Positions 46,407 to 56,888 of a DNA stretch of 64,000 nucleotides are shown in pieces. This DNA comes from Nitrosarchaeum sp. GTDB lineage: Archaea; Thermoproteota; Nitrososphaeria; Nitrososphaerales; Nitrosopumilaceae. Position 1 is the first letter of the stretch, and each line of letters starts with the position of its first letter. The DNA is taken from contig JAILWJ010000001.1 of assembly GCA_025699025.1 (NCBI GenBank), positions 62,001 to 126,000 of the forward strand. Direction: 5' to 3'. Below the pieces are notes generated by a model. It worked only from the letters and a program-made list of their open reading frames with translations. It did no database searches and was not told the origin of the DNA. The translations under genes and the position numbers were made by a program.

Positions 46407-46749
46407 CTTATTTGATACGTTAATGACTTTATAAAAATCTCATAATTGCTCAGGAATGCTTTTTAACTACTTGAGCCTACTTTGTACATCGAGTTTTCTG
46501 CGGATACAACTCTTTGAGCGTGCGGTTGTAAAGCCTCACCTCTTAGAGCATTTTCATGATTTCTTGGTATGTATTGTTTGCGTTAATTCTTTTTGTATAT
46601 TTTACATTTCCTTAATCTGACAGATGTCAAAGAAATGTACAATTTATCCATGCTTTGATTATTTTTTTATAGTTTTGATGTGTTGATTATCGCTAATTTG
46701 CACTGGAACTTTTCTTCCAAATTGTTATTAATTTGATGTCTGCACTTTT
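46407..46749. other. Noncoding interval between divergent genes
   Basis: About 340 bp with no convincing reading frame. The left part (46441-46560) is richer in GC than the rest and has an ACAAC/GTTGT arm pair around 46507-46530. The right part is AT-rich and holds the promoter of the regulator at 46756 (TATTAAT at about 46727-46733). A small RNA in the left part is possible but not demonstrable by eye. Confidence 0.35.
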
Positions 46750-46758
46750 TGCGGTATG
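46748..46758 (-). promoter_or_regulatory. Inverted copy of the S-layer-locus element, overlapping a start codon
   Basis: Read on the minus strand the sequence is a GACATACCGCA-like 11-mer (plus strand TGCGGTATGTC from 46750), sharing CATACCGCA with the three plus-strand copies at 49957, 50938 and 56146. It covers the ATG of the regulator gene, where binding would be expected to repress rather than activate. The first base differs (A for G), and the TATA-side sequence of the other copies is not conserved here. Confidence 0.5.
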
Positions 46759-47601
46759 TCTAATAATGGGACTTTTGGAAATTTACAATCATATAGAAAT
46801 TACACTCAGCCAACAGTCAAACGTCTATTTGGAGATATTTCCTCGAAAAAAAACAACAAATCAAAACATGGTGAAAACATCAAACAACTGCTTTTGTCTT
46901 TGGCATCCAATGGGTTCTTGACCACCTGGGAAATCGCAAAATTAGATTATTCAGACACCTCGTCAATTCGAACAAGAGAAAAGCAAATAAGAAGACTGCT
47001 GGTTGGTAGAAAAGACAGGGGTAAAAAATCTCCCGGAGTCTTGGATGTTGGACTGATTGTCAGCAAAAAAATGAAAGCAAGTCAAAGCATTTCAAATTCT
47101 TATGGTCTGTCATTGCATGGGGTATTGTATTGTCTTGATGTTTTAGATTTTAGCAAAAAAGATGTTGATCAAATGGCATACCGTTATTCCAAATCCCTTC
47201 CAATGGTATTTGGTAGGTGGGATTACCTAAAATCCATACTTGGTGATGACGTATACAGAATCAAAATTCTTGCAAGTGGGCTGCTTTTGGATAACATTCA
47301 CATTACTGGAATTTCACAAATACCAATTTTTGAACTAGTCACATATCTTAATGTGAAATATCGGGATAATTACGAAAGCATCACTGAAACTGCGTTAGCG
47401 GATCAAATCTCTTATTGGTTTTATACTGCTCTTCTCATTCCCTCCACATTAAACAAACAAAAAGAGCATTCTGAATTGGAAAAATGGAAGAAAATTTTTG
47501 TAAATGATCAAAAGTTGAAAAAATGGTATTTTGATTTCATTAATGATGCATACAGGTTTTATTCATGCAGATTTGATGTCATTAAAACTCTAGAGCCCTA
47601 A
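46756..47601 (+). CDS. Putative winged-helix regulator, paralogue A
   Basis: A 281-residue protein without a family name I recognise. Residues about 33-100 look like a DNA-binding fold: FLTTWEIAKLDYSDTSSI then QIRRLLVGRKDRGKKSPGVLD. A conserved LSLHGVLYCLDVLD and a C-terminal ADQISYWFYT follow. It aligns along its whole length with the protein at 50012 (FGNxQxxRN at the start, SPGVLDxGL, YESIxExxxADxxSYWF). The pair encloses a two-component system. The stop overlaps the convergent response regulator in a CTAA. Confidence 0.72.
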   Translation: MSNNGTFGNLQSYRNYTQPTVKRLFGDISSKKNNKSKHGENIKQLLLSLASNGFLTTWEIAKLDYSDTSSIRTREKQIRRLLVGRKDRGKKSPGVLDVGLIVSKKMKASQSISNSYGLSLHGVLYCLDVLDFSKKDVDQMAYRYSKSLPMVFGRWDYLKSILGDDVYRIKILASGLLLDNIHITGISQIPIFELVTYLNVKYRDNYESITETALADQISYWFYTALLIPSTLNKQKEHSELEKWKKIFVNDQKLKKWYFDFINDAYRFYSCRFDVIKTLEP

Positions 47602-47972
47602 GACTGTGTGTATTTTTTTATTATGTTTTCAATTTCTTCAAAATCGTATGGTTTACTGATCATTTCTAAAAGCCCCATGCTTTTTGCCTTTAGCAGTTTT
47701 TTTTCATCCACAGCATATGCTGAAATCAAAATTATTTTTGCGTCCTCTTTGATTTTTTTCATTTTAAAGAATGCATCAAATCCGTCCATTTTCGGCATTT
47801 TGATGTCCATGATCGTTATGTCGGGCACTGATTCCCTAAATTTGATTACTGCCTCTTCTCCGTTTGTGGCTGTAACCGTTTCATAGCCTATGTTCTTTAA
47901 CATGAATGTATTTAGTCCTAGCAAATCTGTATCGTCATCAACAAATAAAATCACTGTCATTCTAATTTGCAC
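47598..47972 (-). CDS. Response regulator, receiver domain only
   Basis: A 124-residue CheY-like receiver. Acidic pocket DDD at 12-14, phospho-acceptor Asp56 in TIMDIKMPKMDGF, Thr/Ser switch in IILISAY and the conserved lysine in MISKPYDF near residue 107. No output domain is attached, so it must act through protein contacts. It follows the sensor kinase gene by 32 bp on the same strand, so the kinase is its likely partner. The start may be the internal ATG (residue 5). Confidence 0.9.
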   Translation of the reverse strand: MQIRMTVILFVDDDTDLLGLNTFMLKNIGYETVTATNGEEAVIKFRESVPDITIMDIKMPKMDGFDAFFKMKKIKEDAKIILISAYAVDEKKLLKAKSMGLLEMISKPYDFEEIENIIKKYTQS

Positions 47973-48004
47973 CTCTTAATTCAAATTCAAAGATTGTATT
48001 ACTT

Positions 48005-49855
48005 TCATTTCTGTGGAATTTTGATGATGAATCTTGTTGGATTGATTTGTACATCTATTGACCATCCGTGCTGCTCAATTATATTCTTACATATTGACAA
48101 ACCTAAACCTGTTCCTTTCATCTTTGTTGTAAATAGCGGCGTAAAAATTTTTTTCATATTTTCCTCCGCAATACCTTCTCCGTCATCTTGAATTTCTATT
48201 ATGTCATGAATATGGTTTTTTGAAGTTGAAATTATAATGTTGCCTGCCTTGTCCCCTATAGCTTGAATTGCATTTAGAATCAAGTTGATAAAGACAATTT
48301 CTATTTTTTCCTTGTCACAAGAAACCGTTATGTCTTCTTTTGGAATTTCTATTTTTATATTCTCTGGAATTTTTATTAATTCTATTGAAGATTTTATTAT
48401 GCTTAACATTGAATTATCTTTTACATTTATTGGTGTAATTCTTACATAGTTCAAAACATCTTCAATCTGATGGGCCATTCGTCTTATTGCCCTCTCCATT
48501 CTTGGGAACACTTCTTTTTGTATTTCCGGAGTTGTTCCTTCCGAATTTCTTTTTATGGCATCTATTCCTGTTTTAATTACTGATAAAGGATTCTTCAAGT
48601 CATGAGCCAAACTTGATGATAGCTCTCCTATCGCCAATAAGCGTTCATTTTTTGCCCTTGTTTGGGTCTCAGCTAATTCTTTTTCAGTTTCAATTAATTG
48701 TTTTATGGACACAGATGCCTTCTTAAATGAATTTAAGATTACCTGAAACTCTGCAAATCTGCTTGGTTTTATGGTGTAGTTGAAATCTCCTTTTGAGAGA
48801 TGTGTTGCAACATTTGTTATATCTTCCAACGATTTTGAAATAAAATATGTTATGAACAACCCTATTACTATTACCATTCCGACACCTACAATTGTAATTA
48901 TAACTAACTCGTTTCGTACATTTGAAATGTCTTCTAAAATTGATGACTCGTCTTGCTCTATTATGATGTGCCATCCAAATCCTGGAAAGTCTAAAAATCC
49001 TGTCGATGTTGCAAATGTCACAAATTTTGTTTTTTCTCCTACAGTATTCTCAAATGATCCTATGATTCCATTTACTGCTTCAAATTCATTATATTTTTCA
49101 TAAAACAAATCGTTTCTTTTACTTGAATAAACTATGTTCCCAATTTCATCTATTATGTATACTGTCTTTTTTTCGTTAGATAAGATTTTACTATCTGCTT
49201 TTAAATCATTAAGAATATCCGCTAAATTCAACGATATTCTTAAAACTCCTAGAAAATTACCTGCACTATCATTAATTCGTAATCCTATTGGAATTGTATG
49301 TGTTTTGTAATTGTCATTATACGATGGTTTGCCTATGAATAAACCCTCTCTCTTTGTAATTTGCCACCAGTTTTCATCATCTTGACGAAGATCTGAAATT
49401 CCTATTCCTAATGCAATGTTTTCACCATGTTGATTTGTAATAAAAATTTCATCAATAACGCTGTGTTCATAAACGTTTTTGTAGAATTCTATTATGTCTT
49501 TTAATTCATTTGTTAGTTGATTGTCTTCAACATGTGCGAGTATTTCTAATTGGGTTTCTTGATTGATATTGCTATTTGAATTATTATTTTGCCCCATTCT
49601 TTTTTGAAATAATTCGTTGGATTTCTGAATTGCATTTTGCACTTCCATTGAATATGTAATTTGTTTAAAATCATCAATTCTCTTTTTTATAAATCGATCA
49701 AAATCATGCATTAGCGTTGACGCAATTGTAACGTTTCTTTCTATTGCTGTTTTTTTCATTTCATTAATGTTGATTTCTAAAATTATGAATGATGTTACAG
49801 TATAGATTACCAGAAGTATTGCTAATCCAATTATTATGATATGTGATATTTTCAA
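48005..49855 (-). CDS. Membrane sensor histidine kinase with extracellular Cache-like domain
   Basis: 616 residues. TM1 at 5-26, an extracytoplasmic double-Cache-like sensor (about 35-315; ENWWQITKREGLFIGKPSY is a Cache signature), TM2 at 317-339, HAMP 340-390, dimerisation and phospho-accepting domain with His418 in SLAHDLKNPLS, and an ATPase domain with the N box (ILNAIQAIGDK), G1 (DDGEGIAEEN) and G2 (GTGLGLSICKN). It senses an outside ligand and signals to the receiver at 47598. The start is TTG. Confidence 0.9.
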   Translation of the reverse strand: MKISHIIIIGLAILLVIYTVTSFIILEININEMKKTAIERNVTIASTLMHDFDRFIKKRIDDFKQITYSMEVQNAIQKSNELFQKRMGQNNNSNSNINQETQLEILAHVEDNQLTNELKDIIEFYKNVYEHSVIDEIFITNQHGENIALGIGISDLRQDDENWWQITKREGLFIGKPSYNDNYKTHTIPIGLRINDSAGNFLGVLRISLNLADILNDLKADSKILSNEKKTVYIIDEIGNIVYSSKRNDLFYEKYNEFEAVNGIIGSFENTVGEKTKFVTFATSTGFLDFPGFGWHIIIEQDESSILEDISNVRNELVIITIVGVGMVIVIGLFITYFISKSLEDITNVATHLSKGDFNYTIKPSRFAEFQVILNSFKKASVSIKQLIETEKELAETQTRAKNERLLAIGELSSSLAHDLKNPLSVIKTGIDAIKRNSEGTTPEIQKEVFPRMERAIRRMAHQIEDVLNYVRITPINVKDNSMLSIIKSSIELIKIPENIKIEIPKEDITVSCDKEKIEIVFINLILNAIQAIGDKAGNIIISTSKNHIHDIIEIQDDGEGIAEENMKKIFTPLFTTKMKGTGLGLSICKNIIEQHGWSIDVQINPTRFIIKIPQK

Positions 49856-49956
49856 TTTTGATGTTCAGTTTGAATTATTATGGTATTTTAAGTTGATTTC
49901 TCATTGTATGTCAAATACACTTGTTATTTCTTTCATGGGTCATCTCATTTTTTATT

Positions 49957-49991
49957 GGCATACCGCAATATGGTATCTATTTTGATATAAT
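49957..49991 (+). promoter_or_regulatory. Shared S-layer-locus promoter element upstream of regulator B
   Basis: GGCATACCGCA (49957-49967), 9 nt, then CTATTTTGATATAAT (49977-49991), which contains the TATA box. The TTG start at 50012 is about 24 nt from the TATA centre. The layout is identical, base for base in spacing, to those at 50938 and 56146. Confidence 0.7.
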
Positions 49992-50011
49992 TAATTTCTA
50001 AATATCCTTAT

Positions 50012-50866
50012 TTGACTATATTATTTGGTAACATCCAGGCATTTCGTAACCTTGTGCTTCCCGTATCTGAAGAGTTATTTGGCTCTAGATCCTCCCCATC
50101 TATTTCTAAACATAAGCAGTATGTACAAGAAATGCTAAAACTGCTATCTCTTCATGGTTCGATGACCACTTGGGATCTTGCAAAAAATTCTATTATTTTG
50201 GATCTTGATTCTATGAGATCCAGAGATAAGGTGTTTCGAAGGTTACTTCTTGGCAGAACTGATAGAGGCAAATCCAGTCCCGGTGTTTTAGATATTGGTC
50301 TAGTTACGTCTACTAACTCAGTTTCAATACCATCAAATAAGTATCGATTATCTGCACATGGCCTGCTTTATTGTCTTGCCATTCTTGATTTATCCAATGA
50401 CGAAATTGACCGAATTGTCTCTAATTATTCTGATATATTCCCTAAAATTTTTGGCAAATGGAATTTGATAAATTCCTATTTCAAAAATAGCATTGATCTT
50501 TTGAAAGAAATTGGTAATACTCATGTGTATGAAAATCGCCATCTTGTCAAATTTTCCGATTTCCCATTTGTAGAAATAAATGGCTACATACATACAAAAT
50601 ATGTTGATTTTTATGAATCTATTTCTGAATCTGACTTTGCAGACGAAGTCTCGTATTGGTTTTTTACAAATCTTCCTATTACATATCTTTTGTCTGGAAA
50701 AAACACAAATAAATTATTAGAAAATTGGACATGTCTATTTGAAGAAGATCCTGATTTGAAACACTGGTACTATTCATTTCTTTTAGAAATGAAAAATTTT
50801 TATCTTGTGAGATTTGCCAGATTGGATCATCAATTGTCTTTGGATGATAATTTGATTGAGGGATAA
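50012..50866 (+). CDS. Putative winged-helix regulator, paralogue B
   Basis: 284 residues, paralogous to the protein at 46756 over the full length. Shared landmarks: FGNIQAFRN at the N-terminus, SMTTWDLAKN and a basic RRLLLGRTDRGKSSPGVLD (about 50-95) that together look like a winged helix, SAHGLLYCLAILDL near 120, and ADEVSYWFFT near 213. No ligand domain can be named. It lies 131 bp upstream of the S-layer gene, and both carry the same promoter element. The TTG start is supported by the leaderless spacing. Confidence 0.72.
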   Translation: MTILFGNIQAFRNLVLPVSEELFGSRSSPSISKHKQYVQEMLKLLSLHGSMTTWDLAKNSIILDLDSMRSRDKVFRRLLLGRTDRGKSSPGVLDIGLVTSTNSVSIPSNKYRLSAHGLLYCLAILDLSNDEIDRIVSNYSDIFPKIFGKWNLINSYFKNSIDLLKEIGNTHVYENRHLVKFSDFPFVEINGYIHTKYVDFYESISESDFADEVSYWFFTNLPITYLLSGKNTNKLLENWTCLFEEDPDLKHWYYSFLLEMKNFYLVRFARLDHQLSLDDNLIEG

Positions 50867-50937
50867 TTCTAATAATTCTAATTATTAAACAGTATGAACA
50901 AATTGTTCATTAAAACAAAATTACGCACAAATTGGCA

Positions 50938-50972
50938 GGCATACCGCAAATCAAAAGTTATTTGCATATAAC
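50938..50972 (+). promoter_or_regulatory. Shared S-layer-locus promoter element upstream of the S-layer gene
   Basis: GGCATACCGCA (50938-50948), 9 nt, then TTATTTGCATATAAC (50958-50972). The TATA centre is about 29 nt from the ATG at 50998, so the message has a leader of only a few bases. The element sits upstream of the TATA/BRE region, where archaeal activators usually bind. Confidence 0.72.
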
Positions 50973-50997
50973 AACTAACAAACTGTTCTTCAATAAC

Positions 50998-53900
50998 ATG
51001 TATAACGAATTAGGACGTAAAATAACTAGTCTTACATTAATGACAATTATGTTAGCCGGTGGTATGACATTTGCAGTACCTGGCGTAATGCCAGCTGCAC
51101 ATGCAGCCAACGCTAACCTATTTGTTTCCGCAGAAAACTCGCAGTTTGATAACTACATGTCAGGACCTCAAGTAATTGAGGTCGTTGTAATTGATTCAGA
51201 CATTAATGATACTGATGAGGCAAAAGGTGAACCAGACGTTACAGTAAACGGCAAGAAACTCAGAATGGTTCAAGCCGTGGATGGTAACTGGTATGGTTAC
51301 TTTGCAGATAGAAACATGGCACAAATTGCCGATTCTACAGTAGGTACAAAGGCTGGAGAAGGCTTAGACTTTGGTGTCTTTTGTGCTGCTAGTACTGGTA
51401 CAACTGTCTTGGGCTTCAGTACAACTGAAACCTCTGGCTTTGCAGTTCCAGCACTAGTAACATCTGGTGTCAACGGCTCAAGCACAGGAGGCGTAATTAG
51501 TGCCTCATGTTCTGCAGCTGGCACTGGTACCACAAACGGTACTAACAATGTTGTTAGAGAACCAAAGGATGTCAATACAAACAGTGCAATCTCTAAAGGT
51601 CAAATCGGCCTTTTGAACACTGATGTATGGCCATTTGTACAGCTCTATACTCTAAACCCAACTGGCAACGTCGTCGTCCAGTACAACAAAGGTGGTGGTG
51701 CTCAAACAACAACACTAACCTTTGATACTGTTGACAACTTTGCAAGCATGAGCTTAGACAGAGCAATATATCCTCAAGGTGCACAAGTGCATGTTACCAT
51801 ATCTGATTTATGGCTCAACATCGACCCAACTGACGAAGACTCTTGGACCTTTGGTACAAGTGGAACAATTTCTACTCACTACCAAGTGTTTGATGAGAAC
51901 GGCGCAGCAGTCGGTGATACTGCCACAAACATCAGAACTGGAAGCACATCACTTACCGGAAAACTCAGCAACTTAATGTGTGAAGATAATTGTGTATTAA
52001 AGCTCAACCCCGACGTTCAAGGTAAGGGAAAAGTCATTACCCTACAGGATAACGATGACTCCGCCATTAAAGTCGGATCGGGTGAAGACGAACAGAATCC
52101 AAGCAATTGGCAAACTGATGCTGGATTCCTTGACGGCAAACTACCAATTACAATTACAGAACAGGGTCCAAACAGCGGAGTATTTGGCACATATGATGAG
52201 TCAGATACTTCCAACATTGTAATCACTGATGATGCAAAGAGGGGAACCTCTGCATCAATCGATTACAATAAAACCCCTAGAACCCTTCTTGTAGGACATT
52301 CCTTTGCTACTATTGACATCCAGCCAACTGATAATGAGTGGAACTCTGGTGAAGAGATTCCAGTAGTATTAGTTGATGCAGATGCCAACAAGAACAGTAG
52401 AGCAGACGAAGACCTTGACCTTAACAATCCAAACGTAACATTGATCCCATCCTTACAGACTGGTGATCCATTTACACTTGGCGAGGCAGGTCTGACCACA
52501 GCTAAAGCTACTTTCTTCAATAATGCCACTTCTCAAGTCATTGTCCGAAATGGAACAATGGTAAACGCTGGAGCAACCTCTAACTATAACAACTCTACAA
52601 TGGAAGTTCAGAGATTCAGCCAGAGAGCATTACTTGACACAAGCAGCACTACTACTGAAGTAAACGGAATTGCATTTGACTATAGATCCAACGCAGGCGA
52701 CTTGAAAGATACCGTATTGGCCAAAAATGTCCTTAGAGGATTTAGCCTCTTTAACTTAGATGTTAGAAGCCTAAACATGACTGGACCATTTGATGTTTAC
52801 TTGCTAAACAAAACTGGTACCACCAACATCATTGGCGCTAACGGTACCTTGACACCAACAACCTATGCATATAGATTGTTAAATGATGTCAACGCACAAT
52901 CACTGACACTGCTATCCAACAGTACAATTGACTATATCAACAGCCTAGATGACGATGATAAAATCGGTCTAGCTGTTATAGCAACAACTGGTGGTAGACC
53001 AAACAGTGAGGATGCAGTCGTTGCTGACTTCTTCTCCTTTGGATTCACACAAGATGGACTGGAAGCCGATCAAAGAATCGCTAACCAGATCATCAGACTG
53101 GAACTAGAGGAGACTGGTGATAACACAAGCACCTTTACAGGTTCCTTGGAGTACACCATGATTAATCAGCTAAACATACTTGATAATAGCACATACGCTA
53201 ACCTAAGAACAATTGCCGATGATCCAACTTTCATCGTAATTGAAGACCTAGATGATGAAGACTCTCCAAGAGTCAATTATCTGGACTTGGGTGCAGACGG
53301 TGTGTCTACTCAAGTATCTGATCAAGCAGCAGCTCCAGCACACTCTGGCGTTGTTTCATTCAATACACGTAGCTACAAGATTGCTGACACAGTTACAATT
53401 ACACTCGAAGACGCAGATCTAAACGTAGACTCTGATCTCATTGATATCTATACAGTCACTGGTGGTGATGTCGCCGATCTTAAAGATGTCGTTGGCAGCG
53501 ATGACTTCGACTTTGAACTTTCTGATGGCTCAAACCTCGGTAGATTACTAGATGTCAAATTTGATAATGTTGTATGGAGAACACCTTCCTCTGGTTCATG
53601 CCTCACAGAATTGAACAATGCAGGTGTAACAGACACTGGACTAGGAGCAACAGGCTTTAGCCTTATTGAAACCGGCCCAGAGACTGGCATCTTTATTGGC
53701 GACTTCCAAATTCCCTCTAAATGGTGTAGATCCGCTACTGCTTCATCTGAATCGGTAACCGGTCTAGACATTGAAGTCAAATATGTTGATTTCAGAGATG
53801 CATCTGGTGAGACCATCGAAGTAGGAGATAAAGCAGGAGTTCGCGCTAACACAGGTTCAGTAAGCCTTGATAGAACTGTCTATCCAGTACCATTTGGTGT

Positions 53901-56067
53901 TCCAGATAACTTCAGTGGAAACACTGCAACTACACCAAGGGTCGGATCAGTTGATCGTTCAGTATTCCCAATACACCAATCCGGTATGGATTCAACCTCC
54001 GGATTGCAATCTGGTGAATTCTTGAACAAGGCAGGACTTATGATCCACGTTAGAGTAAACGATCCAGACTTTGACATATCCGCAAGTGGTGAAGATAGCA
54101 TTGCCGAAAACACATCAGACGGAGTAGGTCCAGTGAAGATCTCTGTTCTCAGAGGCTCTTCAGTAGTCGTACTCGGTTATGCAGGTGGTAACGCAACAAA
54201 AGCAGGTGTTATTGACGTCGGTGACGACAATAGTTCCAAATCTGCTAACATCAGACAATTTGGCCCAATGGTCGAAGTTGCACCCGATGCAGGAATATTC
54301 GAAGCCGACATCTTAATCAGATACACAGACGGTCCAGCAAGCACTAATTGCCCAGATACTAAATCTGATGGCTTTAATGCCATCAATGGTACAACTGGCC
54401 TAAGTAGTGTTACTAGCCGATTTGACACTGCCGCATCATCAGGCAATTACTGTATCTTACAAGGAGATATTCTCCAAGTAGAATACACTGATCCAGCCGA
54501 TGCATCAGGTAATCCAAATACTGTGACTGACTCTGCTACATTTGATCTTAGAAACGGTGTATTGCAATCCGACAAATCAGTTTACATTATTGGATCCGAT
54601 ATGATCTTGACCCTCATTGAGCCAGACTTTGATCTGGACAGTGACCAGGCTGAGACATATTCATTGGACTTGATCGAATGGGACTCTGACGCTGCCACCC
54701 TCTCAATGGGTACTAAAGGCGGCTCAGATGGAGCATTTGACCCAGAACCACTAAACTTTAGAGAAACAGGTGACTCTACTGGTATCTTCCAGATTGTCGT
54801 CGAGATTCCTCAAGAGCTAGATGGTGACAAGCTAGAAAGAGGAGAAGAAATTGTCCTCGAGTATACCGACTGGGGTCCATCTGGATCTGACTATGTAGGT
54901 GATGAAGATGAAGATGTCAACTTGACAATCTACACTTCAAACTTCGGAGCAACTGTAGAGCTTGACCAAAAAGTTTACACTTGGACTGACAAAGTATACA
55001 TTACTATCGTCGCACCAGACCACAACTTTGACAGCAACCTAGTTGATGATATAGGCAACACTGATGATGACCCAATAAGGATCTCAACCAGAAATGCCAA
55101 ACTTACCAACTACAAGCTAGTCGAGACTGGCACTGACACTGGCATCTTTACTGGTGAGGTAATTCTTACCGGATTTACACACGATGCAGACGGTGACAGC
55201 AGAACTGGTAACAACGGTAACGATGTAACTACACGAGATCCTTCAGGTAACGGTCCAACTGATGGACTGTTGTCAGCTAGAGATGATGACGGACTGACTG
55301 TCTCCTTTGAATTCTCAGAGGATGAGACAGTTGTAGGTTCTGCACTAATCAGATGGAATATCGGTGAAGTCCAGTGGCTTGAAGCAAGCTATTCTGCGAA
55401 AGGTACAGGTGTTGTAAGAGTAATTGATCCAGATATGAACTTGAATCCAGAAGCAGTCGACAACTTCAGAGTCGACGTGTGGTCTGACTCCGATGCAGGA
55501 GGTATCAGCCTCACTGTAACTGAGACTAATGAGGCAACCGGAATATTCGAAGGAACAGTGTTCTTCACTGTAACTGATCAATCATCTGGTCACAGACTCA
55601 GAGTCGCAGAAGGTGACACTGTCACTGCAGAATATGAGGACAATACATTGCCAAAACCATACACAACTGCAGACGAACTTGATATCACTGCCACCACGCT
55701 AATCGGTACAATTGTGCCACCTCTCGAGAGAGCACCAGCTTCCAACTTGAGAACTGTTGATGCCTTTGGTAACAGTCTAAACACTGTTAACGTAGACCAA
55801 CAGGTACAGATTACAGCCGACTTAGTCAATGGCCAAGATAGAGAGCAACGATTTGCATACTTGGTACAGGTCCAGGATGGCAACGGTGTTACCATCTCAC
55901 TGGCATGGATTACCGGTTCACTATCACCAGGTCAATCATTCAGCCCAGCATTGTCATGGATCCCAACACAAGCAGGTAGCTACACAGCAACCGCATTTGT
56001 CTGGGAATCAGTTGACAATCCAACGGCATTATCACCACCAGTAACCACAACAATTACTGTAAGATAA
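50998..56067 (+). CDS. S-layer protein
   Basis: A 1689-residue secreted protein that forms the outer lattice. Signal peptide at 1-36 (LTLMTIMLAGGMTFAVPGV; cleavage after AHA). The mature chain is acidic and composed of many Ig-like beta domains, each closing with an ETGxxTGIFxG-type strand pair (at least seven: for example ETGPETGIFIGD, ETGDSTGIFQIV, ETGTDTGIFTGE, ETNEATGIFEGT). No C-terminal membrane helix is present. It ends in an Ig-like domain. An upstream TTG in frame at 50932 is rejected because the promoter lies within it. Confidence 0.9.
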   Translation: MYNELGRKITSLTLMTIMLAGGMTFAVPGVMPAAHAANANLFVSAENSQFDNYMSGPQVIEVVVIDSDINDTDEAKGEPDVTVNGKKLRMVQAVDGNWYGYFADRNMAQIADSTVGTKAGEGLDFGVFCAASTGTTVLGFSTTETSGFAVPALVTSGVNGSSTGGVISASCSAAGTGTTNGTNNVVREPKDVNTNSAISKGQIGLLNTDVWPFVQLYTLNPTGNVVVQYNKGGGAQTTTLTFDTVDNFASMSLDRAIYPQGAQVHVTISDLWLNIDPTDEDSWTFGTSGTISTHYQVFDENGAAVGDTATNIRTGSTSLTGKLSNLMCEDNCVLKLNPDVQGKGKVITLQDNDDSAIKVGSGEDEQNPSNWQTDAGFLDGKLPITITEQGPNSGVFGTYDESDTSNIVITDDAKRGTSASIDYNKTPRTLLVGHSFATIDIQPTDNEWNSGEEIPVVLVDADANKNSRADEDLDLNNPNVTLIPSLQTGDPFTLGEAGLTTAKATFFNNATSQVIVRNGTMVNAGATSNYNNSTMEVQRFSQRALLDTSSTTTEVNGIAFDYRSNAGDLKDTVLAKNVLRGFSLFNLDVRSLNMTGPFDVYLLNKTGTTNIIGANGTLTPTTYAYRLLNDVNAQSLTLLSNSTIDYINSLDDDDKIGLAVIATTGGRPNSEDAVVADFFSFGFTQDGLEADQRIANQIIRLELEETGDNTSTFTGSLEYTMINQLNILDNSTYANLRTIADDPTFIVIEDLDDEDSPRVNYLDLGADGVSTQVSDQAAAPAHSGVVSFNTRSYKIADTVTITLEDADLNVDSDLIDIYTVTGGDVADLKDVVGSDDFDFELSDGSNLGRLLDVKFDNVVWRTPSSGSCLTELNNAGVTDTGLGATGFSLIETGPETGIFIGDFQIPSKWCRSATASSESVTGLDIEVKYVDFRDASGETIEVGDKAGVRANTGSVSLDRTVYPVPFGVPDNFSGNTATTPRVGSVDRSVFPIHQSGMDSTSGLQSGEFLNKAGLMIHVRVNDPDFDISASGEDSIAENTSDGVGPVKISVLRGSSVVVLGYAGGNATKAGVIDVGDDNSSKSANIRQFGPMVEVAPDAGIFEADILIRYTDGPASTNCPDTKSDGFNAINGTTGLSSVTSRFDTAASSGNYCILQGDILQVEYTDPADASGNPNTVTDSATFDLRNGVLQSDKSVYIIGSDMILTLIEPDFDLDSDQAETYSLDLIEWDSDAATLSMGTKGGSDGAFDPEPLNFRETGDSTGIFQIVVEIPQELDGDKLERGEEIVLEYTDWGPSGSDYVGDEDEDVNLTIYTSNFGATVELDQKVYTWTDKVYITIVAPDHNFDSNLVDDIGNTDDDPIRISTRNAKLTNYKLVETGTDTGIFTGEVILTGFTHDADGDSRTGNNGNDVTTRDPSGNGPTDGLLSARDDDGLTVSFEFSEDETVVGSALIRWNIGEVQWLEASYSAKGTGVVRVIDPDMNLNPEAVDNFRVDVWSDSDAGGISLTVTETNEATGIFEGTVFFTVTDQSSGHRLRVAEGDTVTAEYEDNTLPKPYTTADELDITATTLIGTIVPPLERAPASNLRTVDAFGNSLNTVNVDQQVQITADLVNGQDREQRFAYLVQVQDGNGVTISLAWITGSLSPGQSFSPALSWIPTQAGSYTATAFVWESVDNPTALSPPVTTTITVR

Positions 56068-56076
56068 CAAAACTAG

Positions 56077-56105
56077 TTCACATTTTCCCTTTTTTCCTTT
56101 TTTTT
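56077..56105 (+). terminator. T-rich terminator of the S-layer gene
   Basis: Starting 10 bp after the S-layer stop codon, the plus strand has runs of T interrupted by C (from about 56083 to 56105, with the last run of eight T). This is the usual archaeal intrinsic terminator type, which needs no hairpin. Confidence 0.6.
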
Positions 56106-56145
56106 GAATCTGACCTAACGTAAGTTGTAGATTATTTCTTCATCT

Positions 56146-56180
56146 GGCATACCGCATCTTGTGCGTTATTCTGAAATAAC
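56146..56180 (+). promoter_or_regulatory. Shared S-layer-locus promoter element upstream of the hairpin RNA
   Basis: GGCATACCGCA (56146-56156), 9 nt, then TTATTCTGAAATAAC (56166-56180). With the spacing of the other two copies, transcription would begin at about 56200, the first bases of the hairpin arm at 56199. No protein start codon sits at the expected place. Confidence 0.65.
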
Positions 56181-56198
56181 AATCATGTATACCATAAC

Positions 56199-56278
56199 TA
56201 ACTATGAATGACTTTGTTTGTCCTATCGAAGTTCATGTTATGATTGGCTTGTAAATGCATTCATAGTTAATTTTTTTT
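56199..56278 (+). ncRNA. Candidate small RNA closed by a 12-bp stem, ending in a T-tract
   Basis: TAACTATGAATG at 56199-56210 pairs perfectly with CATTCATAGTTA at 56258-56269, enclosing a loop of 47 nt. Eight T residues follow one base later (56271-56278). The predicted start, from the promoter element spacing, coincides with the first arm. The expected RNA is about 80 nt. The loop includes CATGTTAT at 56234-56241, complementary to the S-layer start-codon region. No reading frame is apparent. Confidence 0.6.
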
Positions 56279-56332
56279 ACCACGCCGCATTTTGAAAATT
56301 ATTTTAAAATAATTTGAAATGTTTTGTTTGTT

Positions 56333-56749
56333 ATGTTAGTTTCCAAAAGAAATCTGTTTGTATCAACTAAAACTATAATTCTTTGCATATCTCTGTCATC
56401 CGTAGCTGTATTACTCTTGTATTCATATTATGTTGACAATAATCCCTTCACGCCAGATCCAATTGAGATTCTCACAGACAAGTCTGAATACAATGTTAAT
56501 GACTTTGTTGTGTTGTCTGTCAAAAATACTGTTGATCAGAGTAGCATGTTGATAGTGCAAACTCCTTCTGGTGAGGTATATTCAAAACATCTAGTCTCGT
56601 ATCCAAATAATATAGTGCCTAACCAATTCAAGCTTGAGGGACACTTTTTTTCAGAATGTGATTGTACTGCCAAAGGAATTTGGTCAATAAAACACGTGGA
56701 TTATTCAGGCGAAGAATTATCCACTGTACAATTTCTAGTCATTGATTGA
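56333..56749 (+). CDS. Exported or membrane-anchored Ig-like protein
   Basis: About 138 residues from the ATG at 56333 (a TTG 9 bp upstream is also in frame). A membrane helix (about residues 13-33; IILCISLSSVAVLLLYSYYV) precedes a beta-sandwich-like domain (ILTDKSEYNVNDFVVLSV, and VQTPSGEVYSKHL) of the type found as stalk domains in surface proteins. One cysteine pair (ECDCT) lies near the end. No family name. It lies downstream of the S-layer locus and the hairpin RNA. Confidence 0.65.
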   Translation: MLVSKRNLFVSTKTIILCISLSSVAVLLLYSYYVDNNPFTPDPIEILTDKSEYNVNDFVVLSVKNTVDQSSMLIVQTPSGEVYSKHLVSYPNNIVPNQFKLEGHFFSECDCTAKGIWSIKHVDYSGEELSTVQFLVID

Positions 56750-56888
56750 CTTTTGATAACCTCCCAATTATTTTGATATTGTTGTACTTTGGAATTATGT
56801 GTGGATGAATCTCCTGCTTGGTGGATGTGGTTAATACTCGTGTTTTGGATCTTTTACAGTTATTAATGGGGATTTAATTAATGCCAAT

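Follow-up and report, generated by a model that had tools for sequence, protein, structure and literature searches.

The closest described systems are the small RNAs MicF (ompC/ompF) and MicC (ompN/ompC) of E. coli. In both, the RNA gene adjoins one envelope protein gene, and the RNA pairs near the start codon of the mRNA of a paralogous envelope protein. MicF and ompC are co-induced by a two-component system (PMC5745476). Start-region masking in trans is described in archaea for sRNA162 of Methanosarcina mazei, which covers the translation initiation region of its trans target with a single-stranded segment (PMC3510493) and has a cis target too. S-layer proteins coat ammonia-oxidising archaea and are proposed to concentrate ammonium (PMC11153153). 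The same paper reports 91% identity between the main S-layer protein of Nitrosopumilus maritimus, Nmar_1547, and the second one, Nmar_1201, and PMC12448741 reports that the Nmar_1201 gene is up-regulated in biofilms. We found in the literature no regulatory RNA with a target in ammonia-oxidising archaea. The accessible portions of papers on the Nmar_1201 and Nmar_1547 proteins and their expression mention no RNA there; an earlier listing by Walker et al. is possible.

The window, the whole stretch of 64,000 nucleotides analysed here, belongs to Nitrosarchaeum sp. (G000). The comparison set comprises 250 species genomes of the family; the comparison genomes G087 and G231 are each from another genus. 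A unit at 56199-56278 is probably a gene for a non-coding RNA of about 80 nt, antisense to the start of the main S-layer mRNA, the translation of which it would block. The first-pass annotation had proposed a small RNA here and did not name its likely target, the other S-layer mRNA. Like MicF and MicC, the unit adjoins one envelope protein gene and is predicted to pair with the mRNA of a paralogous envelope protein, close to its start codon. Following the logic of these RNAs, it combines complementarity to a distant translation start with adjacency to an alternative envelope gene and the promoter type of that gene. There is no sequence relation to MicF or MicC and no Rfam match. Unlike them, the unit has an archaeal promoter and lies downstream of the envelope gene on the same strand, while MicF and MicC lie on the opposite one. 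The predicted target is nearly leaderless, so its 5' end and start codon would be covered, whereas MicF and MicC cover the ribosome-binding site. The mode of action proposed for the unit is that of sRNA162, which differs from it in target, structure, lineage and genomic setting.

The S-layer gene next to the unit belongs to a module with the following features:

46756..47601, plus strand: 281-aa FGN paralogue
47598..47972, minus strand: receiver-only response regulator, present in the G087 and G231 modules too
48005..49855, minus strand: sensor histidine kinase (dCache_1, HAMP, HisKA, HATPase_c; the dCache and HAMP matches are under the Pfam cut-off); G087 and G231 have related genes in their modules
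50012..50866, plus strand: 284-aa candidate regulator from an undescribed protein family, 'FGN'; the modules of G087 and G231 contain relatives
50998..56067, plus strand: alternative (module) S-layer gene, 1689 aa, ATG at 50998, homologous to 8c8k, the N. maritimus S-layer protein of solved structure

All three genera have the kinase, the receiver-only regulator, one or two FGN proteins, the S-layer gene and the unit at one locus. Over 654 residues, G087's main S-layer protein matches 8c8k without a difference, from which we infer that G087 is N. maritimus. Between its two S-layer proteins the identity is 92.3%, consistent with the 91% published for Nmar_1547 and Nmar_1201. Since G087 shares the locus with G000 and its main protein matches 8c8k, the second of its S-layer genes is most likely Nmar_1201, and the Nmar_1201/Nmar_1547 pair corresponds to the pair in G000, where the alternative and main proteins are 91.6% identical. 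The FGN family has no match in Pfam or NCBIfam. Its predicted structure (pLDDT 81) has no significant match in the PDB (best E 0.016), and weak matches to winged-helix proteins only suggest a DNA-binding regulator. The two S-layer genes of G000 (50998-56132 and G000:C2, L075) are 92-98% identical past the first 400 residues and 74-78% identical before, and have 33 bp in common beyond the 3' T-rich stretch. This jump in identity, together with the common 33 bp, suggests gene conversion between them. The interval 46540-56850 upstream of the L15e gene is an apparent exchange hotspot; relatives carry unrelated DNA there, with an integrase-like gene in G002.

The unit and its promoter have the following parts:

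56146..56156, plus strand: promoter element GGCATACCGCA of the unit, in the same register as at 50938 and 49957, and family-wide above control
56167..56182, plus strand: TATTCTGAAATAACAA, TATT and TATA-like box of the unit, kept in G087 as GTTATTTCAAAATAACAATC
56199..56278, plus strand: predicted small antisense RNA gene, start about 56200, end in T8
56199..56210, plus strand: left arm of the closing stem, TAACTATGAATG, same in G087 and replaced by TCTTACTGCC in G231
56204..56254, plus strand: 16-codon ATG frame MNDFVCPIEVHVMIGL, judged not coding (disrupted by a 1-nt indel in G087; peptide in G231 unrelated)
56220..56241, plus strand: antisense segment GTCCTATCG with 11-nt core GTTCATGTTAT (core 56231-56241), complementary to ATAACATGAAC
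56258..56269, plus strand: right arm of the closing stem, CATTCATAGTTA, replaced by GGCAGTAAGA in G231
56271..56278, plus strand: T8 tract, probable terminator by sequence

Arms TAACTATGAATG and CATTCATAGTTA are perfectly complementary over 12 bp and enclose 47 nt. This bears out the inverted repeat followed by eight T that the first-pass annotation had described. U-tract termination is established in archaea (PMC8716108). The RNA folds at -17.8 kcal/mol, compared with -10.6 kcal/mol for shuffles (z -2.8), and 1 of 200 shuffles folds equally well. No Rfam family scores above its gathering threshold for the unit, which yields sub-threshold chance matches only (E up to 5). Matches such as mir-876 are far under the cut-off and were rejected.

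The element upstream of the unit recurs within the module, where three more features matter:

49957..49967, plus strand: promoter element GGCATACCGCA of the 284-aa gene, N10-TATT-TATA register shared with the unit
50895..50909, no strand assigned: palindrome TGAACAAATTGTTCA 5' of the S-layer promoter, kept in G087
50938..50948, plus strand: promoter element GGCATACCGCA of the S-layer gene, N10-TATT-TATA register shared with the unit

Over the 1.7-Mb genome as a whole, the extended form GGCATACCGCAW has just three copies; they lie on a single strand and within a span of 6.2 kb. The unit has the same element as the S-layer gene, as proposed earlier, with GGCATACCGCA at 56146 and 50938 in the same N10-TATT-TATA register. 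The shared element suggests that the small RNA would be made together with the adjacent S-layer gene, which fits all three loci. A palindrome, GTTATT-N4-AATAAC, begins at 56165 and lies over the TATT/TATA-like box of the unit. With one mismatch allowed, the element plus TATT occurs in 51 of the 250 family genomes, against about a dozen matches in total for the reversed control. The locus has led to a promoter element spread across the family and to several RNA units downstream of it. The distance from the element to the first ATG is 53-60 bp in 31 of 40 cases in relatives (ORFs of at least 40 codons counted), with a mode of 54, and the element-driven transcripts are predicted to be leaderless, starting near +54. 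Because of this spacing, transcription of the unit would start near 56200, about 54 bp past GGCATACCGCA-N10-TATT-TATA, which supports the earlier placement of the start at the stem base. The consensus of the element is GGCATACC[GA]CA-N10-TATT-TATA, and family-wide it drives mainly leaderless small genes.

The same spacing bears on the claim that no protein start fits, which proved wrong. An ATG at 56204, 58 bp past the element at 56146, lies where leaderless starts lie and opens the frame MNDFVCPIEVHVMIGL, so that the unit could encode a leaderless peptide of 16 residues with the hairpin and T-tract merely as its terminator. We regard this as highly improbable, as the frame is broken by a 1-nt indel in G087, the peptides MNDFVCPIEVHVMIGL, MNELFVYPLFML and MILRYLDCSCYETFQNNILRQ are unrelated except for the shared arm, and the start codon is within the stem. 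The unit is judged non-coding, as the first-pass annotation had it, because the frame is not conserved in homologues.

A family-wide search gives one strong homologue of the unit, in G087 (81% identity, E 5.8e-12); in the four other genomes of the genus the unit was not found. The G087 copy is on the same strand, directly 3' of the second S-layer gene, with promoter AGCATGCCGTA-N10-TATTTCAAAATAAC, identical arms and a T7 tract. That G087 keeps the stem, the T-tract, the promoter element and the location 3' of an S-layer gene supports the small-RNA reading, against which the first-pass annotation would have counted a lack of conservation of stem and T-tract. The gene downstream of the unit differs between G000 and G087, and the unit is therefore assigned to the S-layer gene. 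A role as leader of the downstream L15e gene was rejected, as relatives carry other DNA there and the next gene in G087 is a different one. G231, from a third genus, also has two such S-layer genes, and an analogous unit lies directly 3' of the second. Here GGCACGCCACA precedes a predicted transcript whose stem is TCTTACTGCC/GGCAGTAAGA and which has a T8 tract. These arms are unrelated to those of G000 and G087 and the architecture is the same, which makes G231 an independent-looking third case. Covariation of the stem in relatives had been suggested as a check. G231 supplies an unrelated complementary pair of arms that would not align in register with the others; the arms of G000 and G087 are identical, and no compensatory changes can be counted. 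The region is AT-rich and there is no Rfam match, as might be expected of a fortuitous hairpin without function, yet a structure conserved in two further genera, in the same place and under the same promoter type, is very unlikely to be one.

In the 250 genomes, the pattern TATC-N(3-8)-TTCATGTTRTGA has 8 matches. Five are inside reading frames, and the 3 intergenic ones are the units of G000, G087 and G231. The antisense form of the unit is thus carried by only 3 of 250 species genomes. The extra S-layer genes of G046, G175, G209, G200, G138, G034, G096 and G010 have no convincing element upstream. No unit was seen in the 3' flanks of those in G046, G175, G138, G034 and G010, where the S-layer stop was located for some only. 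Several further candidates were set aside. A match in G004, TCATGTTATTGAAAAAATATCCGTCCTATTTCA, is without the promoter element and probably due to chance, and a covariance model of the two homologues gave further matches only in protein genes or unrelated loci, which we take as chance. An exact-arm pattern searched in 85k genomes and viral contigs matched bacterial records only, and no viral record.

In G000 and G087 the main S-layer gene is elsewhere in the genome under a different promoter (L130/L138; L131). Its start reads CAATAACATGAACAACGAATTAGGAC in G000; the G087 counterpart is CAATAACATGAATAACGAAATAGGAC. Reverse-complemented, the unit interior contains ATAACATGAAC in G000, a stretch that includes the start codon of the main mRNA (G000:C2), and AACATGAATAACG in G087, where the start codon is covered as well. 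Codon 2 of the main gene is AAC in G000 and AAT in G087, matched by G and A in the unit RNA, respectively; between the two predicted duplexes, this change from G-C to A-U is compensatory. The adjacent S-layer genes start with ATGTATAAC (G000) and ATGTACAAC (G087), and codon 2 interrupts the pairing. In G231 the unit interior has 13 nt (ATAACATGAACAA) antisense to its own main S-layer start and also carries CGAGATA, fitting the GAG ATA S-layer codons of that species. The longest Watson-Crick complement to the own main versus the neighbouring S-layer start is 11/8, 13/6 and 13/7 nt in G000, G087 and G231, and includes the start codon of the main gene in all three. Cofolding gains are -10.8/-4.9, -6.9/-0.7 and -7.6/-3.0 kcal/mol for the main/neighbouring mRNA in the same order, so that in G231 the neighbouring mRNA would still pair appreciably with the unit RNA. 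Shuffled interiors reach the duplex energy of the main start in 0.10%, 0.15% and 0 of 2000 cases. Ranked with 76 ORF starts from the window as possible partners of the unit, the main S-layer start comes first. By plain duplex energy, random 60-nt tiles of the window do equally well in 11 of 4255 cases. The predicted pairing in G000, with 11 contiguous pairs, is moderate. The weight of the case is in the recurrence across genera at the same position, rather than in one duplex. A TATA-like TTAAATAC is found about 30 bp ahead of the main S-layer ATG. From this distance the leader of the main mRNA is expected to be a few bases long, and the RNA would cover its extreme 5' end.

Two other readings are touched by this complementarity. 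The inverted repeat could be a DNA element, either a site for recombination or a regulator, or what remains of an S-layer duplication in inverted orientation. The identical arms in G000 and G087, the resemblance of the interior to an inverted S-layer start and the signs of gene conversion between the S-layer copies agree with such an origin. The arms in G231 are an unrelated complementary pair, the promoter and T-tract are retained, and the complement is confined to the start region and maintained with a compensatory change; all of this argues against a DNA element, which we consider quite improbable. It is unlikely, to a lesser degree, that the unit is a small RNA with another main function, such as binding of a protein or of other mRNAs, for which the S-layer complement is incidental or minor. 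A conserved stem and promoter are expected of any functional RNA, but the longest block invariant in the alignment of the three units, TTCATGTT, is the antisense core, and the complement tracks the species-specific target.

A second class of predicted RNA under the same element also has S-layer antisense, which speaks against another main function too. These element-driven units, found in G083, G087, G103, G231 and G232, consist of a GC-rich hairpin followed by GTCCTAWYTC, which is complementary to S-layer codons 3-7 (up to 13 nt of complement). They are listed here by position:

L042:5070 and 5246; L046:4892 and 5057; L028; L057: second-class hairpin RNAs, 10-13 nt antisense, in tandem in some genomes

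In G087 and G231 the complement follows the S-layer type of the genome itself, GAA ATA or GAG ATA. The units of G083 (13 nt) and G103 (12 nt) fit one S-layer codon type, their own S-layer starts being outside the comparison. Antisense runs of at least 10 nt follow 9 of 73 elements, while sense runs follow 1 of 73, which is the S-layer gene itself. In several second-class units an upstream TCATGTTAT is also complementary, in an order that precludes one continuous duplex.

With the antisense RNA preferred, the locus can be read as a switch. Sequence shows the anatomy of the unit, its conservation, its complementarity to and covariation with the target, and the conserved set of neighbouring genes; transcription, co-induction, translational repression and the part played by kinase, receiver and FGN protein are proposed. 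The two-component system of the locus would turn on the alternative S-layer gene, and the RNA would be transcribed from the same promoter type and induced along with it, the kinase, receiver and FGN proteins being candidate controllers of the element. The stem would present a single-stranded segment, which would pair with the main S-layer mRNA at its 5' end and start codon. On this nearly leaderless mRNA the pairing would block ribosome entry, and translation of the old protein would go down as the alternative coat is made. The alternative mRNA of G000 and G087 may escape through codon 2, which specifies Tyr instead of Asn. The full scheme, an RNA-based S-layer switch with a kinase-controlled module and a silencing RNA, a second hairpin class for further tuning and codon-2 escape in two genera, we consider somewhat favoured, with less confidence than the antisense RNA gene. 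For N. maritimus it offers a concrete, testable mechanism by which the coats could be swapped, and a possible reason to retain a second S-layer gene 92% identical to the first.

Other predicted structured transcripts also lie under the element. A leader or RNA with GGATACCCTCGAATCC in a longer stem is found in G082 (L027:1501), G111 (L033), G118 (L036, L047) and G044 (L041:1681). These mostly precede genes for secreted proteins, are once followed directly by T8, and are without Rfam match. Another leader under the element, also recurrent and marked by a motif resembling GGAAGTGAGGCCAAAA, lies 5' of secreted-protein genes at L009, L024, L030, L038 and L050.
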